Of a stretch of DNA of 64,000 bases, positions 1,771 to 45,660 are shown in pieces. The stretch spans positions 22,306,507 to 22,370,506 of the forward strand of contig CM066922.1 in NCBI GenBank assembly GCA_033964015.1. Direction: 5' to 3'. The position numbers and the translations under genes were made by a program. Within the stretch, counting starts at the first letter, position 1. The number at the start of each line of letters is the position of its first letter. The DNA comes from Scolanthus callimorphus. Its lineage: Eukaryota; Cnidaria; Anthozoa; Actiniaria; Edwardsiidae. The notes under the pieces were generated by a model. The model did no database searches and was not told the origin of the DNA. It was given only the letters and a program-made list of their open reading frames with translations.

Positions 1771-4700
1771 ATGGCTTCAGTAGTGGAAGAATGCGTTGCC
1801 AGAAATGGCCCAAAAACAAGCGCTAAGAAGAAGAGGAGGGGTAAAACAAAAACTCCAGATGTTACCGAATTTGAGGATACAGATACAAAAGAAATAACCG
1901 CAAATTTTGCATCAGATGGCGACGATAAAGTTGCACCCACTGAAAGCTCCTTCCTCCCTGTCATAGATCCAGCTTCTTCGCTTGAAGGTGCAGCGATGAC
2001 CAAGACAACAACTGATTCAGACTCGCCAGGATCTAATAGGAGGAAGAAAAAGAAGAAAAAGAAAAAGAAAGGAAACAAGAAAATGGGCATTCTGGTTTCC
2101 GATTTCACAGGCGAAGAGACAGTTGCGGGCCCATCGAAGGCCGACCTACAAATGTTTGCCAATGAAAAGTCATTGCTGGAAGCAAATAGCGAAGAGTAAG
2201 ATTTAATACGTTAACGCTCTAATAATGCACCAGTCAATTGACAGTAATGCACCAGTCAATTGACAGCCCCGCACCCCCCCCCCCCCACCCCCCCCCCATT
2301 CGCGCATTAGCGGGGTACTAGCGGGGCTTTCGTACAGAATTCACACTACATTATGCACCAGTCAATTGACAACCCCACACCCCCCCATTCGCGCATTAGC
2401 GGGGCATTCACCTTATTGGCAAGTGAAAGGCAGTGAACGCCTCGGTTTGCGGGGACAATCTGAGAGGTGAATGCACCATCCCCAGAGTAACAATTAAGAG
2501 TGAATGTGCTCCTTGCCCAACGAATTTAGAAAAAATAACACAAAGAATTTTTACTCACTGAAAAGAGTCATGTCAATGGTGCCCAGTTTTCAATGCAGCG
2601 GCAGCCGATCGCAAAGTGCAAAACCATATTTTTCTACTTGCATGTACTTTCGCTAGTGTAGATTAAAATTTAATACGTGTAATTCAAGTAACAAAAATCT
2701 GTATTTGTCGTGTCTTTTGTGAAGTAAGGGCTGTTTATATGGAGGTGAGACAGCCCGGAAAGCGGGCTGGTTTCTGTTGTGTTGTGTCCCGGGGAAGAGA
2801 GTGACTCCCCGCTCGATGTACTGTGTGGAAGCTGTGAAAGAAAGCGCATCTCCCGACCAACGGGGCAGTAATGTAGTGTGAATTCTGTACGAAAGCCCCG
2901 CTAGTACCCCGCTAATGCGCGAATGGGGGGTGCAGGGCTGTCAATTGACTGGTGCATTACTGCCCCGTTGGTCGGGAGATGTGCTTTCTTTCACGGCTTC
3001 CACACAGTACATCGAGCGGGGAGTCACTCTCTTCCCCGGGACACGAACACAACAGAAACCAGCCCGCTTTCCGGGCTGTCTCACTTCCATATGAACGGCC
3101 CCTTACTTCACGAAAGACACGACAAATACAGATTTTGTTACTTGAATTACACGTATTAAATTTTAATCACTAGCGAAAGTACATGCAAGTAGAAAAATAT
3201 GGTTTTATTGCGCTTTGCGACCGGCTGCGGCTGCATTGAACTGGGCACCATTGACATCACTCTTTCAGTGAGTAAAATCCTTTGTGTTATTTTTCTAAAT
3301 TCGTTGGGCAAGGAGCGCATTCACTCTTAATTGTTACCCTGGGGACGGTGCATTCACCTCTCAGATTGTCCCCGCAAACCGAGGCGCTCACTGCCTTTCA
3401 CTTGCCAGAAAGGTGAATGCCCGCTAATGCGCGAATGGGGGGGGTGCAGGGCTGTCAATTGACTGGTGCATAAGCCCCATCTCTCTAAGGGACCAATCAT
3501 CTCATTTGTTTTGTCCACGTAGGGCGGTGGTTTTCTAAATTTACTGAATGTTTAAATTCGCATCCCCGGAAACAATATATGAAACAATCTCCAAGCAAAA
3601 AATGTCGTTTTTCAACACCTCATGGCCAAAACCATATTTGGAATCATTTACCTTATAAGGAAGTGACAGGAGATCCTCTTTTGATAATAATTTCGGCAAA
3701 TAGAGTGGATTTCAGATGACTGTTGTGAGTACTTGGTAATTTGTAATTACTCCTATATGTTTTGTTCAGAATTGGTGTAATTACTTTGCGATTGGTTTCA
3801 CTACAGTCCTATGAAAACCACTCTATAGGTGATACAAAAAATAACCCCCACATGACATCTACGTACATTCTCAAAAAACTTACCTATATCCTTGACCAGA
3901 TTTGGTTGTTGTTTCCAAACTGCCTTGATGTATGTTGGTCAGACCTGGTTCATGTTTTATCACGCTGGCACCAACACCCCCCCAAAATGCGTCATCCAAA
4001 CTTTGACTCTACATGACTTTCCATCCCAAGTGGCTATTTTGATCAAATTTGGTACATAGGATGACATCACAATGATAAATATTTTTCATTAATTTTGACG
4101 TCACTATGATGGTTTGTGACGTCACCAGAGATTGCACAATCGTTTGATCATTTTTACGAATTGAAATATGCACTATTTCTGTAATGGCGATGATACACCT
4201 CAGCAAGAGATGTTGAAAACCGAAAACCGTTTGTTGATAGCATAAAAAACAGCTGAGTTCTAGTTTTTCAAAGATTGACCCCTCCCCTCCCCTAAATATT
4301 TTGTTACAGTAACAAATGTACGGTAAAACAAACTTACTGGTTATTTTTTTCGAGTATTTCGTCAATTGAACCGATTTCTGTTGTTAAGTGTCAAGCAAAA
4401 TGGTATCTAAAATCGTATGATTTTAAAATTTTGAATTTCGTCCTTAGAGCGAAGATAGAAAGCATTGTTAGATTGTGACGTCATAATCTATGACGTCATG
4501 AGTTTACATTTTTGGATTTTAAACACGGAAAATAGATGATCGAGAATGGAAATGATTGCAATTCTTTTGTAGTCAACTAGTATAACTTATATACTAAGAT
4601 ATTTGACTGTGTAATGACGTTACCCTACAAAAATTAATTAATTGTAATTTTTTTCAATTGTTAAGGTAGATCCAACCTTATACGAATCATTAAAAAATCA

Positions 4701-7700
4701 TAACTCAGCTAATATAAACCCAAAACGCAAACGGTTTTCGATTTTCAGCTTCTCTTGTTATAATCTATCATTGCCGCTACAAAAAGCAAGCAGATTCGAC
4801 ATAATAAAAAATAGTCCAATAATTACGTCATCCCCAGTGACGTCACAAACACCATGGCGACCACTCAATAGGTGAAAAATGTGTGTCTTCATAATGTCAT
4901 CCAATGTACGAAGTTTGGTAAAAATAGACACAAAGGGTAGAAAGTTATGTTGAGAATTGATTTTTGCCCACGTTTTGATGACTCATTTAGGGGGGTGGTT
5001 GGTCCCAGCGTGTATGTGTTATTGTGTGGTTCCAGAAAATATCTTTAACACCCTTCTGGGGGGAAGGGGGGGGGGGATGGATATTTTCTGGACACACATT
5101 TGGGCAAAATAGAATAGCAAATCAATTTCTGCAATGCAAGATTTATTCTACTGACTCAAATAGTCTCAATAGAATTGTGTATGGCACCAGTACTGTAGTA
5201 AAAATAACTTTACATCAAAAAGCTGTCTACGTTTCTGCATCTTTATGATAATAAAATGCAGAAATGGACTGTGTTACGACAAATGGCTCATTGAAAAATT
5301 GTGACCCTCCCAAATCCGCTAAAAATCTTGGGGTCCTCGTCCCTTTAAATGAGCTTTAAAAATGTGTGGCCCTCCCCCAAAAAACAAAAAACAACCCCCC
5401 CCCCCCCCGTAAATAAGAAATAGACATGGTTTATTGGTACCATGTATATAAAAATACATAGGCATTAGGTTCCAAGAAATGTGAAATTAAAAACAAATCA
5501 AAAAATACAGATATAATGAGAGCTCCCTCAGTCCCCATGATTTCAAGTAATAACTTAAACTTAATGTGAGATGTATTTTACCATGTCCTTTCACCATGTT
5601 TTATAATTGTTCTCCTCCTAACTTCCAAAGGCATACTCTATGGGCGTCTCTAACTGGTTAAAGTATTTCTTATTCATATAATTTTTTTCCATTTTTTTTT
5701 TCTCATGCCGGTACTGTATTAGGTCCATGGTATGACTAGCTTTACGGGAAAACTAGGTGGATCCAGCAACACATGGTCACTCAGTAAATTTGGATTTTCT
5801 TTTTCAGAATCAACATACTACGAATTTTCAAGCTGTTGTATGGGATAGGATTACCAGCCCTCCGAAATGTGTTCATGAAGATTCACCCCAAATGGTCTAA
5901 TCAGCCTAGTGATGCAACATTCTTAGCAAAAGGAAGCATGAAACTTAAAAGCCACGAACTTACCAGTTTCAACACTGGAAACATTGCCAAGTGGGATTTC
6001 TCGCTGATCACAACTGTGCTCTTGTTCTCAAACGTTTGTGCAAAGGAAGTAAAGAAATTAGGCTACAAAGCTACTTTGCATTCGCTGAAACAGCACAAGA
6101 ACATGTTGCTGAGCCACCCGACCAATGACAAAATGAGTGATGGAGATTTTGAATCATTCTGGTCAGGCATATCAAAGGATTTAATTGCTATTGATGCAGA
6201 TGCAGAAAACATAAACCAGATCCTGGAAGGTAAGTTTCTTCAGCCAAAATATTTATTATATAAAAAGATTTGGCTGTAGTACTTCATGCCCGGATATATG
6301 ATACTGATAGGATCTCACCGAGTTTATGCGAGATAACTAAGGGGGAAATGGTCCAATTGAAAGGCGAGATAAGGGACAAAATGGACAACCTGAATTAGCA
6401 ATTTATAACTGGTGATTTGTACTTGCGAGATAAAGCGAGATATGGAAAAATTGTGCCAATCAGGAAGCTGCGAGATAAGGCAAGATAGGACGAGATAAGG
6501 TCCCAGAGTCGGCCTAATGATTGCCTAGGAGCTCTTCTTTCAACACTGAATTAAGGTTAGCCTCACCCCCTAGGCGTCTTGTGTTAGCTTCGCGTGTCAT
6601 GCAACACATCTGTGATGTCACTAACTGACGACCCGCACAACCAAACGGAAATTTAATACCTGCAATACGTCTGTCGATGGGTAATAAGTGTTTTTAAGTT
6701 ATTTAGGGGTGGCGAATGGTCAATGCGAGAATTCCGAGAACGCGAGAACGCCGCTTTCAAAATCCGAGATCGAGAACTCGATTTGAGATTCGCCATATAA
6801 ACACAACAAACTGGAAAATCCGAGATCCGAGACGACCTGAAAAAAAATCCGAGATCCGAGAACGGCAAATTTAAAAATACGAGAATTCGAGAACGCCTAA
6901 AATTTCGCGAGAAAACAGTTTTTTGAAGGACCATTCGCCACCCCTTTATTTCTACTAATAATTATCACAATTGTTATAGAAAAAACGAATATTTCGATGT
7001 CTAAGATCTCAAGATGTTCTGTACTCGCTTTCTGATTTGCTAACTTCTTACAAAATGGCCCGGTTGACGTAGTCGCACAGTAACTTCGAATATGCAAAAC
7101 GTCAGCAGTAAAATTTATTTGCAATTTCGTAAACATGACAACTAAAAAGTGTGTTTGCCCTCCAGTCATGCTCGGTTGATTTCCCCTTAGGAATCTAGAG
7201 GTCTATTGATAGGCTCGTAAGCGACGTAATAACCACATATTGACTGTTCAACTGCAAATGGCCTATTCTTCTGAAAAGCTGTGGTGTTTGGGATCGATTC
7301 CCAGTTTGAGAAAATTTCCCTTCTGTTGGAGTCGTTATGGAGACTGGTTCGTTTGTGGGTTGGACTGAGTTTAATAAACCGTTTGGCCTGTTTACCTTTC
7401 TTTCTATCCCTGTACAAGGTGGACACTAAAATGGCCCATTGCACTCTTCCTACGGTATAAGTGTAGGTGGATTGTTTCCCGTTGCAATGGCCTCGCGCTA
7501 TCGAAGGCATTTATAGCGGAGCTCCTTAGCGGCCGAAGGCCGCAGAGCGGAGCACCATAGGTATCGCAGGAAGAATACAATAGCTCAAAGTGGAACTCAG
7601 GTATACGATCGACTTCATTTTTCATGGTTCAGCGGTATTCCCATTCTGGTATCGCAGGCGCGTGTCTGCGTGCGTGCCCCACCACAGGTAAACCAAGACC

Positions 7701-10700
7701 CTTTTCACCGTTTATTAATAGAATCCCATGCTATGACTCTATCTCGCGCGCTGATTGGCTGAAATCGAGGGAGATTTTTTGTGGAATTACATGGCTGCAA
7801 AAGTAGAATCTAATGAAAACACAGGACGCCCACGAAATTAAATTTCTACGAAATTAAATTTCGTCGCGGCGATATCGATTTTTCGCGTGAGATTTAGTGT
7901 GGAGTTTCCTCGTCGGGTAATGGATTTACCTATAGAAGTTAGCTACGATAAAAGCAGGGGAAATGTATTTATCTCCATTTTTCGTATCACAGTTTTTCGC
8001 GCGCTTTGTGAAACGTGGGCACACACGCGCCTCCACAAGACACAAAACTCTCGTCTGGTCAATACAACAAGTTTTGGAAACAAAATCTCTCTGGTTCCTC
8101 CAACGTTTCGGGTATTTCTACCCTGGGTATGCAAGGCAATGTCCAGATATTTACTTTACAAGATAATTTCAACGAGAAGCTGTTGGCTAGTTCGACTTAA
8201 AAGTTCTGTCATCGATTGAAAAGTTCTGTCAAATGTTAGAGGTGGAAAGCACATGCAAAACGAAAAACACTACAGGAGCTGCACTTTTTAACAAGAATAA
8301 AGGAGATAGAAAGCCGTAAGGGAACAAGAAATCAAACAAGTAAGCTTTAAAAGTTAAAACATTTTCGATCAGTAAGATAATTCTACTAATTCAAATCATT
8401 TGAAACTCTTTGTAGACTCGATCGCTTTCATAGTCAAATTGGCTTCAGTCACTTTCAGTGTGTTGACACTGAACTGAATGAACACGGAACTGAATGAATT
8501 TTCTCTCATCTAAACATTTATATATTGTAATTTCATGTTTTAAAGATTCGCTATTGCAGCAAAGCCTAATTTCAAGGGACTTTCGTTTTGAGATTCAGAA
8601 AATTGCATCGCTTTCGCACTAGCGCGGCTTTCAAGCACGGCTTTCAATTCCCTTAAATTTAGACTTATTCTCTAAAAATGTCCAGCATGGGATTCAAAGA
8701 AAATCCATTACCTGACTCGGGAATTCCACGCTAAATTTCACTTGAAAAACCGATATCGCTCTCGTCGCTGCGCGACTCGAGCGATATCGGTTTTTCGCGT
8801 GAAATTTAGCGTGGAATTCCCTCGTCAGGCAATGGATTTACCTATAATATCTCAAGAAGGGATGGACCCAGGCGGTGTGCGCGCTACGAGCGTGATGCAT
8901 CATGGGTACTACGTAATCTTCGCTCATTTGCCACACGCCGCCGTTGAGTGCACGTTTGTTAGCGGAGTTCCCGCGGGCGCCGAAGGCGCCCGCGAGCGGA
9001 GCCCCATAGCTACATGCAGGAGAAAAAGGAAAAAAAAAAGTGTATATGCATCCAACGATTCTGTCATGGACTTCCGGTTTGTGCGTTCGTTCGTTCGTTC
9101 GTTCGTCCGGAATGACGTCATCGAAACTAGAAAAATCAAATTCTCAAGAAGGCAACATCGATAGGTGACCAAACTTGGGTAAAGTTATTCTGGAGGCAAG
9201 GGGGTGCACTACAAAGGTCACGTGACATGACGTCATCGATGACGTCATCAAAACTAGAAAAGTCAATATCTCAAGAAGGCAACATCGCTAGGTGACCAAA
9301 CTTGGGTAAAGTTATTTTGGAGGTAAGGGGGGTGCACCACCAAGGTCACGTGACATGACGTAATCGATGACGTCATCGAAAACTAGAAAAGTCAATATCT
9401 CAAAAAGGCAACATCGCTAGGTGACCAAACTTGGGTAAAGTTATTTTGGAGGCAAGGGGAGTGCACCACCAAGGTCACGTGACATGACGTCATCGATGAC
9501 GTCATCAAAACTAGAAATGTCAATATCTCAAGAAGGCAACATCGCTAGGTGACCAAACTTGGGTAAAGTTATTTTGGAGGCAAGGGGAGTGCACCACCAA
9601 GGTCACGTGACATGACGTCATCGATGACGTCATCAAAACTAGAAAAGTCAATATCTCAAGAAGGCAACATCGCTAGGTGACCAAACTTGGGTAAAAATAT
9701 TTTGGACGCAAGGGGGATGCACTACCAAGGTCACGTGACATGACGTCATCGATGACGTCATCAAAACTAGAAATGTCAATATCTCAAGAAGGTAACATCG
9801 CTAGGTGACCAAAACTTGGGTAAAGTTATTTTGGAGGCAAGGGGAGTGCACAATCAAGGTCACGTGACATGACGTCATCGATGACGTTATTAAATCTAGA
9901 AAAGTCTATATCTCGAGAAGGCAACATCGCTAGGCAAACAAACTTGGGTACAGTCGAGAAAACATCCTGAGTATGTGGGTATGAAGCTCTTTGAAATGCA
10001 ACAAAAAAAATCTGAATTTGCAAGTATGGCAATGGAGAACAAGAAGAATGCTTTCTATAGCAAGTGAAGTCGCGATACGTCACATTATTAATCTTTTGCA
10101 GGACTTATAATTTTCCCTAGCAACGGCCCAACAAGATAGGTAAACGCACCCTTTTATAAAAATATGTAACCGGGAGCTCCGCTTTTAGCCAGTGGCTAAA
10201 TCTATATATTATAGTGTATAACAGCTCTCATGATTGTAAGCTGTCCGCAACTTGTGCCATCCTTGCAGCCCGTTAAGTCCTCAAACCTCACCTTGTCTAA
10301 TGGTCGTGTATATTCGACCGCTTGGAGTTCCCTTACGATGAGGAGAAGACCCTTCGGGTTTTTTTTTTGTGGATATTGCACAAAGGACAATCCGATTGGG
10401 AAATTGAACTGCCTCTTTTGTTTGGTTGCAGATGACGTTCTTCAGACAGGTAGATTCTATCGCGAAATGTTTCTTCAGGAATACGCGAATGAGTCGGCTG
10501 TCCAGGCCCAAGTCGACAGAATAGAGAAAAAAATTGACTCGATGGCTAAACTGGCTTATCCGGAGCAAGAGCCAGCTCTTCCGTCATCAGTAGGCCGTGA
10601 TGTGGGTGAGCCAAGCTGGAATGACTGGGTCAGGTTCTGCGAAAGTGTCCGCGAGTTCAATGCTGCCAAGAATCAGTATATCCTGATTACAGATGCTATG

Positions 10701-13700
10701 TCAGCTGAAGACTTGCAGCATTTTTCAAGTTTGAGGAACGTTTCCTGGAAAATGGTCCTCGACTTTGACCCATCTTCAGAACGAAAAGGGATGTACAATG
10801 ACTTCTCGTCAAAAGACGGGAAAGACAGGCTTATCAACATGATAACTCCATCAGAAATAAAAAGCCACCTCACCGCCAACTTAGCAAGGCAGATTGATCC
10901 GAGCAAGACTCAGTGGCTTTTTGTGAACGGACGAGATGATGATAGCCCAGCTGATGGCGGGCCTCAAGGTTTGGCAGATTGGGAAGCATCTTCCGTGAAA
11001 CAAATTAGCAAGTTTTTTAGTTTTTGCTCAGACCCTGATAAATTTGACAAACATAAGCCTATCATCTGTTTGATGCTGCCTTTCCGTGAGAGAAACATCC
11101 CTTATTTGGAAACAACTATCAACAGACTCCTAGAGAACTTTGACGAATTCCCTGTCCAGTTTGTTGCAATAAAACCTGATTTCGGCCCGCTGCCGCACAC
11201 AAAAGTCGATTTCCAAACTTGCAATTTACCTCCTTCACTTCTTAGTTCTGGTCTCAGTGAAATGTTCAATGTTCCTTCTGTCCAAGAGTATAAAATTCCA
11301 ACATCGCAAGAAAACTTAACAGCAAACCTGAAGCAAAATGAGTATTTGTTTCTAAAGGAGTACCTCGATGTGATGTATATAGGCTGCGAAGACCTACTGA
11401 CACCTTACGGCGAAGAGTTGGATGAGCAACAACTGAAAGACGAGCTCGACCGTCACCGCGAGTCTTTTTTGTCAGGCAATTGGATTTCTTTTGCAAGCTT
11501 ATATGATAACCATGATGCCAGAAGAGAGCTAGGGAACGAAGTGAAAAACTTTCTCCAACGTCTTCTGGAGAGCAACGGCCCAAAGCACCCTTCCATTGTA
11601 GAAATACGTCATTCACCTGGAACAGGCGGCACCACAATAGCACGACGCGTCTTGTGGGACCTACATAAATCGTATCCATGTGCCATTGCAAGACTGGAGG
11701 ATCACTATTACGAATACGAAGATGATTGCATCTTTATTAACGCTCTTGCAGATCGAATCAGCACACTGCAAGGGATCTGTCACACAACGCCTGTGGTCCT
11801 GCTTGATGGGAAGCACATGAGAATAGAAGTCCTAACTAGTCGGCTGGCCAGGGTTCTCGAGAACAGAGGTCAAAGAGCAATTCTACTGAAATGTCAACAT
11901 GGTTCCAAACTCAATGTCATCGACTTACCTCCGGACTGTTCTCATGTTGTCAAGCAATTTTCTGTGAATGTTAAGCTCGAAGAATCAGTTACTGATCTGC
12001 ATGAATTCCAAGCAAAGTATAAAGAATACATTGAAGATTTTTCAAATGGGTCCCTCGCACCGAGACGCGTCTTCCATTTTCCACTGATGGCGATGCTCGA
12101 GGGATTTCGCCCGAAGCTGCAACAAATAATATTCGAAACCTTAGATGAAATGTCTCCGCTTGAAAGGGAAATAGCAGTACTTGTCGCTTTTGTCCAGAAA
12201 TATGCAGGGCAGGCAACACCGGCTGCACTTTTGTACAAAGCTTTTAAACAAAACTTTCGTGAAGGAAGAACGAATGAAGGTGTGACTTATGAAGACATAA
12301 ACCAGTTGTTTACTGAACATTTGCTGAATCTAATGGTGTCCGCACATCCGGTTCGAAAGCATCGCACAGGCAGACTGCATCAGCAGGAAGACTTCCCTGA
12401 AATGTATACCTTACAGCACCCCGTGGTTGCCGAACTTGTTTTGAAGAAGTTGCTGCAAGATCAGAAAAGGGATCTCTTTGCTGTTACACGCCAGTTTTTG
12501 AAGTATTCCATCTTCGATGACGGACGTTTCTGGGCTCTCATGAGTGATTTATTCGTTCGTAATAAACCTAATGACAGCCGAAAAGGAACCAAGTTTTCTT
12601 TGCTTTTCGAGGAACTGAAAGATAGAAATACAGAACGTGCAGCAGAGATTTTCCGAGAAGCCGCCGAGAAAACGAATGATGCTTACGTGTTCACAAATGC
12701 TGCTCGCTTCTATGCAAGGAAACTATCTCCGCCTTCATTTCCCAAAGCGAAGGATATGATCGACAGAGCATTTAGAGCAAGAAATGCGAAGTCAAGGACA
12801 AGAATGATATATGACACGAAAGGCCACATTCTGTATTGTGAAATGGAAAGAAAATCAAACGGAAAGAAAATTAAGTCCATAGAAGAGCTCCAAATAGCTG
12901 CAGACGAGGCAATCCAGGCATACAAAAGGGCAAGGGACTTTCCTCCAACGTTTGCATACCCTCTCATTGGAGAAGTAAAAGTTTGGCTTGTCTGCATTGA
13001 GTGGATCATGAAGCATGAGTGTGGTGGAGACTCTGATGAGACCCTAAAGTTCATTTCATCGAAAGCACCTGCATTTTTTCGTACCTGCATAAGCGACTCG
13101 TTTTACCTACTTGACATTGTGGATAATATTGTGCATTCAGAAGTAACATTGCAGCACCCAGAAGATACACAAATTCAAGCCAACAACGTACGACTGTCTT
13201 TGGTGAAAACTTTCAACAAGGGAAAGAAGGGAGGAAGGAGAGCCCCAGAAAGCGTGATACGGACATGCAAGGCTATTTGTTCTGAAGAAAACTTTCCCCA
13301 TTCAACAAAGTCTGAACTGAAGCGACTTCAAGCGCATTTTATTTTGAGCTCCACCGATCAGATCGAAACATTACCAAGGGAGCAGCTTGAATACCTTCGC
13401 AAGCTTTTGGACGACATTGTCTTGGTAGAGGGAATTGGCGGTATGGGATACCACCTGATGAAGATAAGTGTGCTATTTAGTGGGCCACAGTATTACACGT
13501 TGGACAAAGGCCTCAGAATTGTAGATATATGGAGCAAAGCATTCCCTTACGATCCTTTCCCTCACTATTATCAAATGGTCATATCATTTCTTCAAATTCT
13601 TGATGGGAATACTTTCCAGTACACAGCAGAATTTCACAAGGCTAGAAAGATGTGCCAGGAGAGATCTGTGAACCATTATCGTAGTGTTATGTCTACACAC

Positions 13701-14057
13701 TATCTCAGGAACGGAGGCGAAGGGATGTATCGTCTGATTACGTATAACACCCTACGAAGAAATGAAGATTACGAGAATTCGGTGGATATTCAGAGATTTT
13801 GGGAAGTCGAAAGCCGAAAAAAGCTCCGAGAATGCAGCGGTAGAATCAGGATGCACTCAAGGTCAGGCCGAAAGCGCGCACAGCCTTATATTGAGCTCAC
13901 ACAAGGTAATGTTGAAGTCTATGTGGGAAAAAGTGCTGATATTGGTCAAGTGGAAAAGGATTTTACTGCTGGTAGCCTGGTTTACTTTGTTGTGAGCTTC
14001 ACGCTTCAGGGTCCCGTAGCTAACGGAATTACCTTCAAGCCTGTCTTGAAAGGATGA
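1771..14057 (+). CDS. HEPN (DZIP3-type) + SAMD9-like STAND NTPase, 1490 aa, 3 exons
   Basis: Exons are 1771-2195, 5808-6229 and 10432-14057, with junctions GA|GTAAG...CAG|A, GAAG|GTAAGT...CAG|AT and GT-AG introns. The summed length is 4473 nt, an exact multiple of three. Residues 1-141 are charged and low complexity, with a nine-Lys run near residue 95. Residues 143-283 resemble the DZIP3-type HEPN domain: YGIGLPALRNVF, then FNTGN, and KNMLLSHP at 239-246 where the R-x(4-6)-H motif normally lies. About 284-330 is coiled-coil-like and about 340-600 resembles the SIR2-like part of SAMD9. The P-loop is SPGTGGTT at 677-684 and Walker B is VVLLDG at 737-742. Helical, TPR-like sequence follows (around 1000-1200), then a C-terminal beta segment from about 1435 (OB-like in SAMD9). 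SAMD9 relatives are STAND-type innate-immune regulators acting on translation or viruses. No SAM or AlbA domain is seen; HEPN replaces them. A role in RNA-targeting defence is inference. Confidence 0.88.
2196..5807 (+). other. intron 1 of the HEPN/SAMD9-like gene
   Basis: It is bounded by donor GTAAG at 2196 and a pyrimidine-rich acceptor TTTTCAG ending at 5807. It holds the large foldback element (2226-3474). From 4000 to 5000 is AT-rich sequence with scattered TGACGTCA-like blocks that look like diverged satellite, and there is a poly-C tract near 5397-5408. I see no further exon. Confidence 0.75.
2226..3474. repeat. long foldback element, arms about 520 bp
   Basis: The main arms are 2351-2873 and 2955-3473, near-perfect reverse complements. 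Shared landmarks are TTATGCACCAGTCAATTGAC at the left end, GTGACTCCCCGCTCGATGTA near the inner end, and their complements on the right. The 81-bp spacer is itself an inverted copy of 2240-2350, containing the CCCCGCTAGTACCCCGCTAA block, so one inverted repeat is nested in another. No open frame of note is present. It lies inside intron 1, so unspliced transcript could form a long hairpin. Confidence 0.9.
6705..6945. repeat. MITE with inverted ends AGGGGTGGCGAATGGTC
   Basis: The left end AGGGGTGGCGAATGGTC (6705) is mirrored by GACCATTCGCCACCCCT (ending 6945). The interior is made of short repeats of a GAGATCCGAGAAC-type motif. About 240 bp, non-coding. Confidence 0.8.
7513..7700 (+). repeat. 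fragment of the AGCGGAG repeat family
   Basis: It begins AGCGGAGCTCCTTAGCGGCC and shares the blocks AGCACCATAGGTATCGCAGG and ATACGATCGACTTCATTTTT with the copy at 14469-15078. A small hairpin (CGGCCGAAGGCCG) follows the start. Confidence 0.65.
8702..8836. repeat. palindromic element, arms about 60 bp
   Basis: The left arm runs AAATCCATTACCTGACTCGG to CCGATATCGCTC. The right arm runs GAGCGATATCGGTTTTTCGC to CAGGCAATGGATTT. A partial relative lies at about 7860-7935 with the same GATATCG...TTTCGCGTGA and TAATGGATTTACCTATA blocks. Confidence 0.8.
8951..10209 (+). mobile_element. AGCGGAG-family element carrying a 128-bp satellite
   Basis: The 5' part has AGCGGAG plus a GC-rich hairpin (GGGCGCCGAAGGCGCCC) and a (GTTC)n microsatellite at 9084-9106. 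The interior is the 128-bp array (9112-9955). The 3' end is GGGAGCTCCGCTTTTAGCC, then a small hairpin (TTTAGCCAGTGGCTAAA) and TCTATATATTA. The same end signature occurs at 15036-15078 and, inverted, at 44465-44510. The layout (end hairpins, internal tandem repeat, microsatellite, no coding) resembles non-autonomous Helitron/Helentron-type elements; that class assignment is inference. Confidence 0.6.
9112..9955 (+). repeat. 128-bp tandem satellite with CRE-like palindromes, about 6.5 copies
   Basis: The CGTGACATGACG block recurs at 9221, 9349, 9478, 9606, 9734 and 9862, a period of 128-129 bp. Each unit carries the palindrome TGACGTCATCGATGACGTCA (two CRE-type octamers, some units with one substitution) directly after TCACGTGA (an E-box). 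The other landmarks are CAATATCTCAAGAAGG and CCAAACTTGGGTAAA. Confidence 0.93.
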
Positions 14058-17672: not shown

Positions 17673-20600
17673 TTATCTTGCTTTTGTCTCTGCCGTTTTC
17701 CCTTCCAACTTGGCGAGTAGTTGATTGGAATCGTAGTAAACATTAATTGATGTAAATTTGAGGTTGTCGTCTACCACAGCCACGCCCATTCCATACATGA
17801 CAATTTCTTCACCCGTGGGAGGGTTGTCTCGGTAAGGGCCAGTAAAATGCCCCCAGTGACGCCAAGAGAAGACCACACGGGGTGGCTCTAGAGTAAAATA
17901 AGGAGCACGGTTAGTGGTACGTCTACGATGCATGCTGCGATATATGCTGCAATTTGGCAGTTTCCAGTGAATAATAGCGACCACACATCCAGTGGTGAGA
18001 ACAGCCAGCGAGTTTGCACTTTGATAAGCTGAGGGACGTTTACACGTTGCAAATGAAACCAAGACAAGAATAGGACCAGACAGGACAGGGCACGAGGACA
18101 GGGCAGGGGACAACATGGAAATAGGAAACGACGGGACCGGGCAGGACAGGACATGAGGATAGGAAAGAACATGTGGTCATGACATGACATTGGAACAGTA
18201 CAGAACATGATGACGACAGGACATGACGTGAGGTTAGGACAAGACATGGAGACAGCATGTACAGGGCATGAGGACGGGACAAAGGGCAGAACAAAGCATG
18301 AGAAAAGGACATGACATGTAGACAGGCCATGAAGACAGGACATGAATATTAGCCTTGAAGACAGGACATGAATATTAGCCATGAAGACAGGGCAGAAAGA
18401 CAGGACATGAATATTAGCCATGAAGACAGGCCATGAAGGCAGTACATGAATATTGGCCATGAAGACAGAACATGAAGACAGGACAGAAAGACAGACATGA
18501 ATATTAACCATGAAGACAGACATGAAGACAGGCCATGAAGACAGAACACGAAGACAGGACATGAAGACAGGACATAAAGACAGGACATGATATTAGCCAT
18601 GAAGACAGGCCATGAAGGCAGAACATGAAGGCAGAACATGAAGACAGACATGAAGACAGGACATGAAGACAGGACATGAAGACAGGACAGAAAGACAGAC
18701 ATGAATATTAGCCATGAAGACAGGACATGAAGACAGGACATGAAGACAGGCCATGAAGACAAGCCGTGAAGACAGAACATGAAGACATACATGAAGACAG
18801 GACATAAAGACAGGACATGATATTAGCCATGAAAACAGACATGAAGACAGGCCATGAAGGCAGAACATGAAGACAGACATGAAGACAGACATGAAGACAG
18901 GACATAAAGACAGGACATGAAGACAGAACATGAAGACAGAACATGAAGACAGGACATGAAGACAGGACATGAAGACAGAACATGAAGACAGAACATGAAG
19001 ACAGGACAGAAAGACAGACATGAATATTAGCCATGAAGACAGGACATGAAGACAGGACATGAAGACAGGCCATGAAGACAAGCCGTGAAGACAGAACATG
19101 AAGACATACATGAAGACAGGACATAAAGACAGGACATGATATTAGCCATGAAAACAGACATGAAGACAGGCCATGAAGGCAGAACATGAAGACAGACATG
19201 AAGACAGACATGAAGACAGGACATAAAGACAGGACATGAAGACAGGACATGATATTAGCCATGAAAACAGACATGAAGACAGGACATGAAGACAGGACAT
19301 GAAGACAGAACACGCAGACAGGACATGAAGACAGGACATGAAGACAAGCCATGAAGACAGAACATGAAGACAGAACATGAAGACAGGACATAAAGACAGG
19401 ATATGAAGACAGGACATGATATTAGCCATGAAAACAGACATGAAGACAGGCCATGAAGGCAGACATGAAGACAGACATGAAGACAGGACATGAAGACAGG
19501 ACATGAATATTAGCCATGAAGACAGGGCAGAAAGACAGGACATGAATATTAGCCATGAAGACAGGCCATGAAGGCAGTACATGAATATTGGCCATGAAGA
19601 CAGGACATGAAGACAGAACACGCAGACAGGACATGAAGACAGGACATGAAGACAGGACATAAAGACAGGACATGAAGACAGGACATGATATTAGCCATGA
19701 AAACAGACATGAAGACAGGCCATGAAGGCAGACATGAAGACAGGACATGAAGACAGGACATGATATTAGCCATGAAAACAGACATGAAGACAGGACATGA
19801 AGGCAGACATGAAGACAGGACATGAAGACAGGACATGAAGACAGGACATGAAGACAGGACAGGACATGAGGACAGGACAAGACATGAGGACAGGACAGGA
19901 CATGAGGACAGGACATGAGGACAGGACATGAGGACAGGACATGAGGACAGGACAGGACATGAGGACAGGACAGGACATGAGGACAGGACATGAGGACAGG
20001 ACAGGACATGAGGACAGGACAGGACATGAGGACAGGACAGGACATGAGGACAGGACAAGACATGAGGACAGGACAGGACATGAGGACAGGACAGGACATG
20101 AGGACAGGACAGGACATGAGGAGAGGACAGGACATGAGGACAGGACAGGACATGAGGACAAGACAGGACATGAGGACAGCACAGGACATGAGGACAGGAC
20201 AGGACATGAGGACAGGACAGGACATGAGGACAGGACAGGACATGAGGACAGGACAGGACATGAGGACAGGACAGGACATGAGGACAGGACAGGACATGAG
20301 GACAGGACAGGACATGAGGACAGGACAGGACATGAGGACAGGACAGGACAGGAGGACAGGACAGGACATGAGGACAGGACAGGACAGGAGGACAGGACAG
20401 GACATGAGGACAGGACAGGACAGGAGGACAGGACAGGACATGAGGACAGGACAAGACATGAGGACAGGACAAGACATGAGGACAGGACAGGACATGAGGA
20501 CAGGACAGGTCATGAGGACAGGACAAGACATGAGGACAGGACAAGACATGAGGACAGGACAGGACATGAGGACAGGACAGGACATGAGGACAGGACAAGA

Positions 20601-23600
20601 CATGAGGACAGGACAGGACAGGAGGACAGGACAGGACATGAGGACAGGACAAGACATGAGGACAGGACAAGACATGAGGACAGGACAGGACATGAGGACA
20701 GGACAGGACATGAGGACAGGACAAGACATGAGGACAGGACAGGACAGGAGGACAGGACAGGACATGAGGACAGGACAAGACATGAGGACAGGACAGGACA
20801 TGAGGACAGGACAGGACATGAGGACAGGACAGGACATGAGGACAGGACAAGACATGAGGACAGGACAGGACAGGAGGACAGGACAGGACATGAGGACAGG
20901 ACAAGACATGAGGACAGGACAGGACATGAGGACAGGACAGGACATGAGGACAGGACAGGACATGAGGACAGGACAAGACATGAGGACAGGACAGGACATG
21001 AGGACAGGACAGGACATGAGGACAGGACAAGACATGAGGACAGGACAGGACAGGAGGACAGGACAGGACATGAGGACAGGACAAGACATGAGGACAGGAC
21101 AGGACATGAGGACAGGACAGGACATGAGGACAGGACAGGACATGAGGACAGGACAAGACATGAGGACAGGACAGGACAGGAGGACAGGACAGGACATGAG
21201 GACAGGACAAGACATGAGGACAGGACAAGACATGAGGACAGGACAGGACATGAGGACAGGACAGGACAGGAGGACAGGACAGGACATGAGGACAGGACAA
21301 GACATGAGGACAGGACAAGATATGAGGACAGGACAGGACATGAGGACAGGACATGAGGACAGGACAGGACATGAGGACAGGACAGGACATGAGGACAGGA
21401 CAGGACATGAGGACAGGACAGGACATGAGGACAGGACAAGACATGAGGACAGGACAGGACAGGACAGGAGGACAGGACAGGACATGAGGACAGGACAGGA
21501 CATGAGGACAGGACAGGACATGAGGACAGGACATGAGGACAGGACAAGACATGAGGACAGGACAGGACAGGACAGGAGGACAGGACAGGACATGAGGACA
21601 GGACAGGACATGAGGACAGGACAGGACATGAGGACAGGACATGAGGACAGGACAAGACATGAGGACAGGACAGGACATGAGGACAGGACAGGACATGAGG
21701 ACAGGACATGAGGACATGAGGACAGGACAGGACATGAGGACAGGACAAGACATGAGGACAGGACAGGACATGAGGACAGGACAAGACATGAGGACAGGAC
21801 AGGACATGAGGACAGGACAGGACATGAGGACAGGACATGAGGACAGGACATGAGGACAGGACATGAGGACAGGACAGGACATGAGGACAGGACATGAGGA
21901 CAGGACAAGACATGAGGACAGGACAAGACATGAGGACAGGACAAGACATAAGGACAGGACAAGACATGAGGACAGGACAAGACATGAGGACAGGATATGA
22001 GGACAGGACAGGACATGAGGACAGGACAGGACATGAGGACAGGACAGGACATGAGGACAGGACAGGACATGAGGACAGGACAGGACATGAGGACAGGACA
22101 GGACATGAGGACAGGACAGGACATGAGGACAGCACAGGACATGAGGACAGGACATGAGGACAGCACAAGACATGAGGACAGGACAGGACATGAGGACAGG
22201 ACAAGACATGAGGACAGGACATGAGGACAGGACAAGACATGAGGACAGGACTGGACATGAGGACAGGACAAGACATGAGGACAGGATAAGACATGAGGAC
22301 AGGACAAGACATAAGGACAGGACAAGACATGAGGACAGGACAGGACATGAGGACAGGACAAGACATGAGGACAGGACAAGACATGAGGACAGGACAAGAC
22401 ATGAGGACAGGACAAGACATGAGGACAGGACAAGACATGAGGACAGGACAAGACATGAGGACAGGACAGGACATGAGGACAGGACAAGACATGAGGACAG
22501 GACAAGACATGAGGACAGGACAAGACATGAGGACAGGACAGGACATGAGGACAGGACAGGACATGAGGACAGGACAGGACAGGAGGACAGGACAGGACAT
22601 GAGGACAGGACATGAGGACAGGACAGGACATGAGGACAGGACATGACATGAGGACAGGACAAGACATCAGGACAGGACAGGACATGAGGACAGGACAAGA
22701 CATGAGGACAGGACAAGACATGAGGACAGGACAAGACAGGACAGGACAGGACATGAGGACAGGACAGGACATGAGGACAGGACAGGACATGAGGACAGGA
22801 CAGGACATGAGGACAGGACATGAGGACAGGACAGGACATGAGGACAGGACAGGACATGAGGACAGGACAAGACATGAGGACAGGACAGGACATGAGGACA
22901 GGACATGAGGACAGGACAGGACATGAGGACAGGACAGGACATGAGGACAGGACAGGACATGAGGACAGGACAAGACATGAGGACAGGACAGGACATGAGG
23001 ACAGGACAGGACAAGACATGAGGACAGGACAGGACATGAGGACAGGACAAGACATGAGGACAGGACAGGACATGAGGACAGGACAAGACATGAGGACAGG
23101 ACAGGACATGAGGACAGGACAGGACATGAGGACAGGACAGGACATGAGGACAGGACAAGACATGAGGACAGGACAGGACATGAGGACAGGACAGGACAGG
23201 AGGACAGGACAAGACATGAGGACAGGACAAGACATGAGGACAGGACAAGACATGAGGACAGGACATGAGGACAGGACATGAGGACAGGACAAGACATGAG
23301 GACAGGACAGGACAGGACATGAGGACAGGGCATGAGTACAGGACAGGGCCAAAATTAAAACCCACAGTGAGAGAGGCAAAAGCCCAAGAGCGAGTCAAAA
23401 GTAGGCTAATGTTTCTACTAACTTCTACTTACTTGTAAAGACTTCCTGCACTTCCCAAGGAAAGCCGTCCTTGAAAGCTGTCCTGAACAGTTTGTGCGAT
23501 GATTCAAGTGTCTCGCTATCAGCGTCGTACAGCGGGTTGTTTTGTATCAAAAGGTTGTAGGAGCCAAATTTGTTGAGCGTTTCGCTGTCAAAGACTGCGT

Positions 23601-36100: not shown

Positions 36101-38535
36101 ATTGGATGGCATGTTTTCTGTAAAATCAGCTTGCTGAAAATGTTCTTAAGGCGTTCTTAAAATTGTTTCTTAACATCAAATACTGCATAGCACTACCAAC
36201 AGTCAAAATAAAGAATGCGATTGGCAGAAGGTAACAGTCATTTGGTAACAACAATTTGTCGAGTCTAAAAACAATATTGCTAAATGTACCCTGGAATTCC
36301 CCATACAGTAACCTGCTGTAGAACTTTATGTGCAATGGTCTAGCACATTCTATTGATCTACTTAGTGCCCTACCACAGTGGGTTACTATACTCAAATCTA
36401 ACTGGCAGTTATTTTTCTTATACAAGAACAATTTTCATTTTTCAGGCTGCATGTGTTCTTATGTCTAAGGTACCTTTTTGACCAAATTTCAGCCTGAGTG
36501 TTCTTAATCCACTTGTTCTTTTACGCGGGTTTTTACTGTATCAATGTTATGAATGCAGTATCAGTATTAACATACCCGATCGCTTTCATCATGCTTTCTC
36601 TTGAGCTGATCCGAGAAGAATTCCTCGGCATCCATGTGTACGGCCATCACTCCCTGTAGCTTGCAAGCTTGTTCGTGTAGCGCAAAGCATGGATCCACAC
36701 TGATCACGGGGCTCTTGAAACCAACGCGGCTCCACAACATATGACCTAGTCGACCTGTCCCACCGCCAATATCCAAGAACTGATCTGATGGCTGAAGATC
36801 TAGCTTTTCTGCGATGGTAGAGCAGTACCCTTGATGGATGGGTGCGTAAAATTTGTCGTAGTTTTTGGAGATCGCGTTATAATGGTTGATTACGTTGTTA
36901 TCTGAAAAACCAAATGACGAGCAAGGGCGATGCGTGTTACAGAGACAGATTTTTTTTCGTAAACCCTGGGGTCTCAGGCGCACAGTTGCAAAGGCAAATT
37001 CTTGGTCATAAATCTGACTATGTTCTATTTCTTATCCTTCAGTGTGTAGCAGAAAAAGAAAGAAAGAATACTCAAAGGGAATGCCGCGTGATCTGAAATA
37101 AGAAAACATTACGCCCAAGCGGAGGAGGTCTATTCCCAGCCCTTGTAGTGAGCTCGCGGTCCGTCCCCCAAACAACGGCTGGATCACACCTGATCACAGG
37201 TCTGGCCCCAATCTCGTCCCCAGAGCCTGGGAACGAGATTGGTCTGGCCTTTGTAACGATCAACCAATCATCTAATAGCCTGCACCTGAGACCGCTGACC
37301 GAAACCTGATGCCATGAAAGGGGTGATATGCGGCGCGCATATAGGGTTCTGATTGGTTGAGCTACTAGTAGGCTATAAGTTATAGCCTACTAGTAGCGAA
37401 AAGTGTCGGATTTGAAAGCTAGAAAATGGCAAATGACCAGAACAAAAACATTTTTTTGCAATACAAATTGACCTACTGGTGTGATTTGACTAAAACAATT
37501 ATTCCTCTCGCCCTCATGGCCTCTGAGTCAATAGCCCATGAGGCCGAAGGCCATTCGGGCTCGAGGAATAATTGTTAAGGTGTCTAGCACATTTGATTTA
37601 AACAATAAACTCTAACAACCGAGCTTTTACATTGATAACGGGATATTAAGCTGCCAAAAGAAAACGAATCTGGATCTTTCAATCCGATGAAAGCGCGATC
37701 GACCATGACGGACAATACTGTAGAAACAATGCAAACCAGTCTTTCAGCACTAACCGCTTTTATTTGCAAAGCGTGAATGAATTTTGCTCAGAAACACAGA
37801 AATGTTCAGTATACTCTTCTCAAAACTTTTGTGATGCTTAAAAGACTAGCGAGGAAGGGATTCCCCAGGAAGAATCGTTGCATGGTTGTTTAGCTTTTGT
37901 TTGTGTTCGTCTTTACATGTCTTAATGATAATGGGGGCCGCGTCGCCTAAATAAGCCACAAAGGTCACCACCTAAGTTTATGTCGAAGGCATGTTTGCTT
38001 TATTTGCGGCCCCTGAGTTCATTGCAGCTACAATAAACAGGTTATGCAGGCCCGTCAACCCCAACAGGGCTTCATAAATCTGGAGACTTGCTGACATTAC
38101 AGTAATCTGTATGGCAGCCGTCTTTTCTCGGGAGAGGAAGCGAAAAATCTTGAGACTCCCGGCACAACCGGGTTAATCAATATATAATTCTGTTTAAAAA
38201 AAACCTTCGCGGTCATTCAATCGCTCTGCGTCCCTTAGAGAACTAGCACCAAGAAAAGCTAAACAACCAACGATTCATGCTAGTAGTTTTCAAACACCAC
38301 AAACGTTTTATAAGAGAACACTAAACATTTCATTTACGCTCCTCTACTCGTTAGAAACATAGCACAAACGAAAAAACTAAACAGTCAACGATTCTTTCCG
38401 ACCTGTTGAAAATACCATCAAAGTTTTAAGAAAAGAAACAAAACAGTTCTCTGAAGTTCTGGAGCAAAATTCGCTTCAAAATTGTCAAAACTAGAGTTCA
38501 AAACTCGGCCCATAAAACAACTCACCGTCCTCCAT
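33110..38535 (-). CDS. class I SAM-dependent methyltransferase, 261 aa, 3 exons
   Basis: Coding exons on the minus strand are 38535-38526 (ATGGAGGACG, then GTGAGT), 36901-36576 and 33559-33110. The split codon G|AT gives MED-DNNVINHYN, and CGG|GTATGT joins TTCCAG|TATTCA to give DESDRYSFNKIL. The total is 786 nt, in frame. Motif I is LDIGGGTGRLG at residues 46-56 (SAM binding loop). An acidic residue ends strand beta2 (VISVDP, D73). MDAEEFF precedes the second junction, and the post-II block reads KILMLGMVHHL. This is the standard seven-beta-strand methyltransferase fold; overall it resembles small-molecule (ubiE/malonyl-ACP-like) enzymes, but the substrate cannot be told. The 10-nt first exon is unusual, but its ATG, phase and donor all agree; an alternative first exon further upstream cannot be excluded. 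Confidence 0.85.
34335..34569. mobile_element. MITE with TIR AGCCTGGTGCACACT and TTA target duplication
   Basis: It starts AGCCTGGTGCACACTAGCGA and ends GTGTGCACCAGGCT, flanked by TTA on both sides (34332-34334, 34570-34572). The subterminal GACATAACGACATAA is also inverted. A TTA duplication fits PIF/Harbinger-type elements. The second copy is at 38649-39205. Confidence 0.8.
35416..36012. mobile_element. MITE with ends TAGCCTGCTCGCAGGCG, split by another element
   Basis: The outer ends TAGCCTGCTCACAGGCGTT and AACGCCTGCGAGCAGGCTA are inverted. Internally GTCGAG..CGAGTTTGCT faces its complement near 35960. The intact short relative is 52451-52645. The middle (35499-35925) is a separate element with ends TCTGTAACAACAGACCCGAC and GTCGGGTCTGTTACAGA. 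Confidence 0.75.
35499..35925. mobile_element. nested element with ends TCTGTAAC.ACAGACCCGACGAAA
   Basis: The terminal inverted repeats TCTGTAACAACAGACCCGAC and GTCGGGTCTGTTACAGA bound about 425 bp of AT-rich interior. A 61-codon frame inside (35623-35808) has no recognisable similarity. Confidence 0.65.
36039..36538. mobile_element. Tc1/mariner-type MITE, TA duplication (copy 1)
   Basis: It starts CAGTCAAAACCCGCATAAAA and ends CGCGGGTTTTTACTG, with TA at both borders (36037-36038, 36539-36540). It shares the interior (AATACTGCATA, ACCAACAGTCAAA, TTGACCAAATTTCAGCCTGA) with the copy at 55519-55971. CAGT ends with TA duplication are typical of Tc1/mariner. No transposase is present. Confidence 0.85.
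36902..38525 (-). other. intron 1 of the methyltransferase gene
   Basis: It holds the hairpin element at 37494-37576 and a short palindrome TAGTAGGCTATAAG/CTTATAGCCTACTA near 37366-37396. It is otherwise AT-rich with no exon I can support. Confidence 0.6.
37494..37576. repeat. hairpin repeat around GAGGCCGAAGGCC
   Basis: AACAATTATTCCTCTCGCCC faces CGAGGAATAATTGTT, with ATGGCC..GAGTC and CATGAGGCC pairing inside. Close relatives lie at 58450-58555 and 58881-58957. Confidence 0.7.
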
Positions 38536-44699: not shown

Positions 44700-45660
44700 T
44701 AAAAACGACAGCACTTTCTTGATATGTTGGTTGTTGTAGAGTCTTCCCTTCACGAGATATTAATTTTTTAAGCATAGATGACGTCATCGATGACGTCATA
44801 TCACCTGACCACTTCATTTCGCTCATCTGGTGACCTAGACTACACTTCCCAAGTTTGGTTGTTTTAGAGTCTTCCTTTCATGAGATATTCATTTTTGAAG
44901 CACAGATGACGTCATCGATGACGTCATATCACGTGACCACTTAATTTCGCTCACCTGGTGACCTAGACTACACTACCAAAGTTTGGTTGTCTTAGAGTCT
45001 TCCCTTCACGAGATATTCATTTTTCAATCACTGATGACGTCATCGATGACGTCACATCACGTGTCCGGGTTACAGCACCCCCCTTGTGGCATAGACATCT
45101 GGTGGCCTAGACTACACTACCCAAGTTTGGTTGTTTTAGAGTCTTCTCTTCACGAGATATTAATTTTTTAAGCATAGATGACGTCATCGATGACGTGATA
45201 TCACGTGACCACTTCATTTCGCTCATCTGGTGGTCTAGACTACACTACCCAAGTTTGGTTGTTTTAGAGTCTTCCCTTCACGAGATATTGATTTTTCAAG
45301 CATAGATGACGTCATCGATTACGTCACATCACGTGACCACTTCATTTCGCTCATCTGGTGACCTAGACTACACTTCCCAAGTTTGGTTGTGTTAGAGTCT
45401 TCCTTTCATGAGATATTCATTTTTGAAGCATAGATGACGTCATCGATGACGTCATATCACGTGACCACTTAATTTCGCTCACCTGGTGACCTAGACTACA
45501 CTACCAAAGTTTGGTTGTCTTATCTTAGAGTCTTCCCTTCACGAGATATTCATTTTTCAATCACTGATGACGTCATCGATGACGTCACATCACGTGTCCG
45601 GGTTACAGCACCCCCCTTGTGGCATAGACAAAATATCCCAAGTATGGTTGTCTTAGCGTG
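44700..45660 (-). repeat. 127-bp tandem satellite with CRE-like palindromes, about 7 copies
   Basis: GATGACGTCATCGATGACG-type blocks begin at 44778, 44904, 45033, 45177, 45305, 45432 and 45566 (steps 126-144). On the minus strand each unit reads TAATATCTCGTGAAGGG, CCAAACTTGGGTA, GGTCACGTGA, then TGACGTCATCGATGACGTCA. That is the same landmark order as the 9.1-9.95 kb array, but diverged. One plus-oriented unit lies at 45790-45915. Confidence 0.92.

Follow-up and report, generated by a model that had tools for sequence, protein, structure and literature searches.

A DZIP3-type HEPN domain joined to a SAMD9-type core in a gene of the anthozoan Scolanthus callimorphus

Analysis of a 64,000-nucleotide stretch of the genome of Scolanthus callimorphus (Anthozoa; Actiniaria; Edwardsiidae; GenBank assembly GCA_033964015.1, contig CM066922.1, positions 22,306,507 to 22,370,506 of the forward strand; hereafter, the window) revealed a three-exon gene in which a HEPN domain, judged by profile matches to be of the DZIP3 type, is joined to a SAMD9-type core. 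The fusion is real and resides in one gene, and the same domain order recurs in sea anemones, stony corals and an octocoral. We favour, with moderate confidence, the view that the product is an anthozoan SAMD9-family STAND receptor in which a DZIP3-type HEPN domain takes the N-terminal place of the AlbA-type tRNA nuclease (tRNase) and which would act through the RNA-cutting mechanism proposed below.

Gene structure and reality of the fusion

The three exons join through two GT-AG introns into one open frame of 1490 amino acids without an internal stop (Table 1), and an ATTAAA begins 64 bases beyond the stop codon. A protein search yielded 130 relatives, 120 of which were listed; when 11 of these 120 were compared with the window by tblastn, all 11 matched exons 2 and 3 in the expected order, on the expected strand and in frame (E from 3e-29 to 2e-40 for exon 2 and 0 for exon 3). 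The three-exon structure and splice sites of the original prediction, which had been made from the DNA letters alone, are upheld. At E<=1e-3, the matches of the 11 homologs to the whole window were confined to the gene locus and, at that sensitivity, the window therefore holds a single copy.

Proteins combining HEPN and the core were found in the sea anemones Actinostola, Exaiptasia and Actinia, the stony corals Acropora, Stylophora, Pocillopora and Montipora, and the octocoral Paramuricea. In alignment A1, which comprises the window protein and 24 of the 120 listed homologs picked for an apparent HEPN domain, identity to the window protein ranges from 37% to 52% across the 24 homologs. Long lysine-rich N-terminal regions are present in most of the relatives examined, and the stretch right before HEPN in an Actinostola protein (P0001) resembles exon 1 (SLLRLETKERNNL versus SLLEANSEEINIL in the window gene).

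Several lines of evidence bear on whether the two parts belong together. Nine proteins with HEPN and core (P0006, P0007, P0013, P0021, P0034, P0035, P0037, P0039 and P0045, of which P0007 and P0035 start within the HEPN domain) are encoded on contigs of 4.5–5.8 kb, which are too short for introns as long as those of the window gene (3.6 and 4.2 kb, both containing repeats); we therefore read these proteins as spliced transcripts, with the reservation that introns elsewhere may be shorter. On a 185-kb contig, a single open reading frame (ORF), P0054, covers HEPN and core, with what appears to be a short intron kept in frame at the same position. Among 41 exon-3-type ORFs (those with at least 5 residues before the homology and a homology start before residue 300, many of them near-duplicates), the homology begins exactly at residue 283 in 20 and at residues 276–286 in 37, and we take the intron position at the exon 2/3 border to be common to the relatives. 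The HEPN signature is missing in 99 of the 125 fetched homologs; in 93 of the 99, the homology starts at residue 280 or later, as it would if genes had been called from genomic DNA one exon at a time, and genuine HEPN-less forms of the family may exist beside them.

Further searches added little to this set. A profile search with alignment A2, in which scoring was limited to the 7992 candidates with the most words in common, gave 144 matches, the best 120 of which were nearly all known relatives; distant or vertebrate SAMD9 proteins may have ranked below these. Searching proteins with the HEPN region of P0034 returned 14 proteins, 12 of them already known and the identified ones all from stony corals, and showed no link to NACHT-HEPN proteins at that sensitivity. 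Scanning of bacterial and archaeal genomes with alignment A5 produced 49 stretches with the pattern, none of which was confirmed as a relative by tblastn, and PADLOC gave no match for either exon 2 or exon 3.

The HEPN domain and the N-terminal effector slot

Exon 2 alone narrowly passes the curated cut-off of the HEPN_DZIP3 profile (PF18738; 27.4–27.5 bits versus 27), with an alignment that covers only profile positions 78–135 of 144, and the score drops below the cut-off in longer queries (26.5 bits for the first 337 residues and 23.6 for the whole protein). In the relatives, the profile matches 25/25 A1 proteins at E<=0.01 and all 12 HEPN segments of alignment A6 (best 1.7e-9), some of which have weak second matches to HEPN_AbiU2 (2/12), HEPN_Swt1 (1/12) and unrelated families. 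Exon 2 itself shares 41–54% identity with the corresponding HEPN segments in 11 relatives. By these matches, it is a HEPN domain of the DZIP3 type.

No SAM or AlbA family was detected, either in residues 1–337 (E<=1) or over the full length of the protein (E<=0.01), and the linker from HEPN to the SIR2-like region measures about 60 residues. Two other possibilities for this part of the gene were tried and rejected. The first was an AlbA or SAM exon hidden in the introns: neither family was found in five of the seven intron ORFs of at least 100 amino acids, both plus-strand ORFs included and shorter exons not sought, and the scan gave weak matches only (WKF, E 0.17; DUF6996, E 0.058); such an exon is also disfavoured because the relatives join exon 2 directly to exon 3. 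The second was an alternative start of exon 3 with a zinc finger (10368–10421, in frame before the acceptor), which is absent from the 125 fetched homologs and without a Pfam match. The C-x2-C-x3-N-x6-C-x2-C string at 10368, whose spacing we take to be that of RanBP2-type zinc fingers, is the sole such string in the six frames of the window and is probably due to chance, aided by the polypyrimidine tract. HEPN, then, occupies the place of the AlbA-type tRNase, in agreement with the original prediction that it stands where SAM and AlbA-like domains are found in vertebrate SAMD9, such that the effector fold would differ and the receptor core be retained.

The SAMD9-type core

Compared with solved structures, exon 3 gave significant matches to SAMD9 chains only (E 1.5e-18 by single sequence), and the profile match to SAMD9 reached 8.4e-32, with the main stretch at 19–538. 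A SIR2-like region is followed by a STAND-like P-loop, as in SAMD9, and colinearity extends to the SAMD9 C-terminus, the end of the OB-like region being marked by GPVANGI, invariant in A1. Exon 3 is, on this basis, a SAMD9 core; the HEPN and P-loop parts had been recognized correctly at the outset, and the SIR2-like region between them had been missed.

In SIR2-type domains, the motif G[AGST]G is tied to cleavage of nicotinamide adenine dinucleotide (NAD). Residues 341–620 contain no G[AGST]G string, for which reason we expect the SIR2-like region to lack NAD cleavage. On the P-loop domain, Pfam nSTAND_NTPase7 (20.5 bits) and nSTAND_NTPase5 (18.7 bits) both score below their cut-offs. The signature of the SAMD9 family consists of GGT/S in place of GKT/S and a conserved upstream histidine, and its members may bind nucleoside triphosphates (NTP) without hydrolysis (PMC5445408; here and below, papers are cited for the parts of their text that were accessible). 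Both elements are present in the window protein, and the upstream histidine is invariant in A1. As a side observation, the P-loop reads GTGATT, with alanine for the second glycine of GGT, in 5/25 A1 proteins (P0034, P0037, P0039, P0042 and P0055), including ones from Pocillopora and Stylophora.

The HEPN active site

HEPN ribonucleases (RNases) bear an Rx4-6H catalytic motif. Homologs were sorted by one pattern, W[DN][FVL]SL and then the motif pattern itself, which retained 26 of the 125 that had been fetched and, with the window protein, gave a total of 27 that bear HEPN. Rx5H is found in 19/27, including eight stony coral proteins and one octocoral protein, and lysine stands at the arginine position in the other eight, namely, the window protein and seven from Actinostola, Exaiptasia and Actinia; in two Actinia proteins, the asparagine after the lysine is also replaced, by aspartate. 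Because the sorting pattern itself requires the histidine, the invariance of His245 was taken from A1 only, where it holds in 25/25.

A quick tree without bootstraps was built from the cores of 51 of 126 sequences (27/27 HEPN-bearing and 24/99 others). The window gene falls in a 13-row group with anemones (Shimodaira–Hasegawa-like approximate likelihood ratio test [SH-aLRT] 99) and is placed outside the other 12 rows (SH-aLRT 81); five rows of the group lack HEPN, P0123 sits on a long branch, and less than half of the columns are filled in P0124 and P0125. On this tree, the Arg/Lys difference requires one change. The coral and octocoral versions thus look like active RNases, whereas the anemone versions, including that of the window gene, look altered. 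RNase activity of the window gene itself is uncertain: since lysine replaces the catalytic arginine, weak, altered or lost activity is a real possibility, and activity is more likely for the coral versions.

Comparison with known systems

The window protein shares with SAMD9 and SAMD9L (human, rabbit) the SIR2-like region, the HxPGxGGT P-loop and, with weak detection, the TPR and OB regions in identical order, as well as an N-terminal effector slot, but differs in that SAM was not found, HEPN replaces the AlbA-type tRNase-SA, the linker is short and the N-terminus is long and lysine-rich. In human SAMD9, residues 156–385 form an N-terminal tRNA nuclease specific for tRNA-Phe, which is also present in rabbit SAMD9 (PMC13245274); this domain is a direct tRNA nuclease, modelled under STAND-type control (PMC13245274; PMC12331169). 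AlbA_2/tRNase-SA is part of the core of the SAMD9 family and was lost in some members, and SAM occurs in vertebrate members only (PMC5445408). The invertebrate and bacterial members of the family described by Mekhedov et al. (2017; PMC5445408) have the core and a variable N-terminus in common with the window protein, but their N-termini carry AlbA, SAM, CARD, Death, Pyrin, FIIND or kinase domains. The same work reports SAMD9 in Cnidaria, and the word HEPN is absent from its main text.

DZIP3-type HEPN domains are, for their part, well represented in immune-type proteins. DZIP3/hRUL138-like HEPN serves as the N-terminal module of STAND-type NACHT NLRs in cnidarians and bivalves (PMC8260672; PMC9646362; PMC3710099), and many cnidarian NLR-type proteins have this arrangement (PMC8260672), but their central domain is NACHT rather than the SAMD9 core. 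In coral immune receptors, the domain is abundant as an N-terminal module (PMC10236652); a table of its fusions lists TPR, ankyrin, CARD, NACHT and other domains (PMC3710099), and cnidarian TRADD-N proteins with N-terminal HEPN are mentioned elsewhere (PMC8195603). Bacterial proteins in which HEPN lies N-terminal to a STAND NTPase are known, some of them with an OB domain of the cold-shock type (PMC3710099); these HEPN-STAND-TPR-S1/cold-shock OB proteins and Avs (PMC13245274) resemble the window protein in having an N-terminal nuclease, a central STAND domain, C-terminal sensor or repeats and, in some, OB, but are assigned to other HEPN and STAND families. An anemone SAM-domain protein is reported to be strongly induced (PMC5288695), with no tie to the window gene.

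Database entries of the relatives are already titled ‘DZIP3-like HEPN domain-containing’ or ‘SAMD9-like’, and the proteins are, hence, catalogued. We found no paper on the HEPN-SAMD9 core fusion in the open-access literature searched, which does not prove its absence from print, and the fusion is not the subject of PMC12851939 in its accessible text; the fusion itself is apparently undescribed in that literature.

Other features of the window

Both introns contain repeats. The foldback of intron 1 (2292–3422) consists of three inverted-repeat pairs of 62–133 nt that are 95–100% complementary, and the 128-bp satellite of intron 2 (9112–9954) has a counterpart at 44727–45596; both carry TGACGTCA and CACGTG motifs and, judged by eye, look like one family in opposite orientations. 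A 5-kb satellite of 13/18-bp units at 18308–23347 is open over long distances in several frames of both strands; we take the resulting ORFs to be repeat artefacts rather than genes, although one of them matches the repeat family DUF963 (34.8 bits versus a cut-off of 21). A 13-bp satellite, GCGCTCTACCACT, at 53023–53771 is open in three plus-strand frames simultaneously. On the minus strand, the ORF at 36570–37031 is methyltransferase-like (PCMT profile, 21.3 bits versus a cut-off of 20.3).

Table 1. Exons, introns and predicted protein regions of the HEPN-SAMD9 core gene
Feature	Position in window	Strand	Remarks
Exon 1	1771..2195	+	ATG at 1771, GT at 2196; residues 1-142, lysine-rich low-complexity N-terminal region
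Intron 1	2196..5807	+	GT-AG; foldback element inside at 2292-3422
Exon 2	5808..6229	+	AG before, GT after; residues 143-282, DZIP3-type HEPN domain (by profile)
HEPN catalytic-motif position	6097..6117	+	K239-N-M-L-L-S-H245, Kx5H instead of Rx4-6H
Intron 2	6230..10431	+	GT-AG; 128-bp satellite inside at 9112-9954
Exon 3	10432..14057	+	Preceded by TTGCAG; residues 283-1490; linker, SIR2-like, STAND-like P-loop, TPR, OB-like C-terminus, stop
SIR2-like region	10617..11444	+	About residues 345-620, borders approximate; colinearity with SAMD9 begins near chain residue 252
P-loop domain	11562..12074	+	About residues 660-830, borders approximate; HxPGxGGT common with SAMD9
Walker A H676-x-P-G-T-G-G-T-T	11610-11636	+	Reads HSPGTGGTT in window protein
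Walker B-like LLD	11799-11807	+	
TPR-like region	12411..12923	+	About residues 943-1113, borders approximate; second colinear SAMD9 stretch, independent E 0.1
OB-like C-terminal region	13605..14030	+	About residues 1341-1482, borders approximate; third SAMD9 colinear stretch, E 390, not significant alone

Discussion

By analogy with SAMD9 and HEPN biology, from which we infer the sensing, oligomerisation, RNA cleavage and antiviral role, the protein most probably works as follows. The C-terminal TPR/OB half would sense a signal of infection or stress, and the P-loop core would bind nucleotide and drive oligomerisation. HEPN RNases require a paired active site, and oligomerisation would gather the HEPN domains into one. 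Once assembled, HEPN would cleave RNA, possibly the tRNA that is also the target of SAMD9, and translation would stop.

Several observations weigh against this receptor model. A search of solved structures with the HEPN-segment profile gave no significant match (best E 0.73, a nucleoporin), and TPR and OB are matched weakly (independent E 0.1 and 390). The Walker A motif reads GTGGTT, without the usual P-loop lysine, and the RNase motif Rx4-6H is missing from the window gene, which has Kx5H with lysine for the catalytic arginine; pearl-oyster DZIP3-type HEPN proteins, for comparison, retain Rx4-6H in 194/202 (PMC9646362). The original prediction of an NTPase-controlled, RNA-targeting protein stands, accordingly, as far as its STAND-type logic is concerned and is less certain in its other two parts: NTP binding is plausible, but the label ‘NTPase’ is unproven because the P-loop lysine is missing, and the Kx5H motif renders an RNase in the window gene uncertain.

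The strongest alternative, which we nevertheless consider unlikely, is that the anemone HEPN is a dead RNase kept as an RNA-binding or dimerisation/adaptor module and signals via partners, as in NLRs. All eight HEPN-bearing rows of the anemone group have lysine for arginine, with the additional asparagine-to-aspartate change in two; moreover, the cnidarian NLR-type proteins with DZIP3-type HEPN on NACHT (PMC8260672) and partner signalling as the rule for other characterised eukaryotic STAND proteins (PMC13245274) favour an adaptor. However, the histidine is retained throughout A1, lysine for arginine is a conservative change, and exon 2 of the window is still 44–54% identical to the coral-type versions. 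We find it rather improbable that HEPN was ancestral on the SAMD9 core and that AlbA/tRNase came later in other animals, with no exchange into Anthozoa: bacterial HEPN-STAND-TPR-S1/OB proteins are on record (PMC3710099), but AlbA-SIR2-STAND-TPR-OB has been inferred as the presumably ancestral core (Mekhedov et al., PMC5445408), and our bacterial and archaeal scan, with 0/49 stretches confirmed, cannot decide the matter. Finally, a chimeric gene model with the HEPN and SAMD9 exons in separate mRNAs, to which the long repeat-bearing introns and the many homologs without HEPN might point, is highly improbable and was set aside in view of the HEPN+core proteins on short contigs, the read-through in P0054, the late homology starts of the HEPN-less homologs and the common border at 283.

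The receptor model with an N-terminal HEPN effector can be extended to a broader proposal, to which we give slightly less than even weight: the SAMD9 core may be an interchangeable platform for direct RNase effectors, tRNase-SA in vertebrates and HEPN in anthozoans, with the anthozoan proteins cutting RNA without an adaptor and, in anemones, the site re-tuned or disarmed by one Arg-to-Lys change while the receptor is kept. The tRNase of SAMD9 is itself a departure, in that other characterised eukaryotic STAND proteins recruit adaptors (PMC13245274). A second nuclease-type fold in the SAMD9 slot, kept in corals and anemones, would point to an exchange of nuclease effectors on a single core in animals, as in bacteria. 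The fusion also singles out a coral gene family as a candidate for antiviral defence or stress control, in which the coral Rx5H and anemone Kx5H forms offer a direct contrast for RNA cutting and translation halt.

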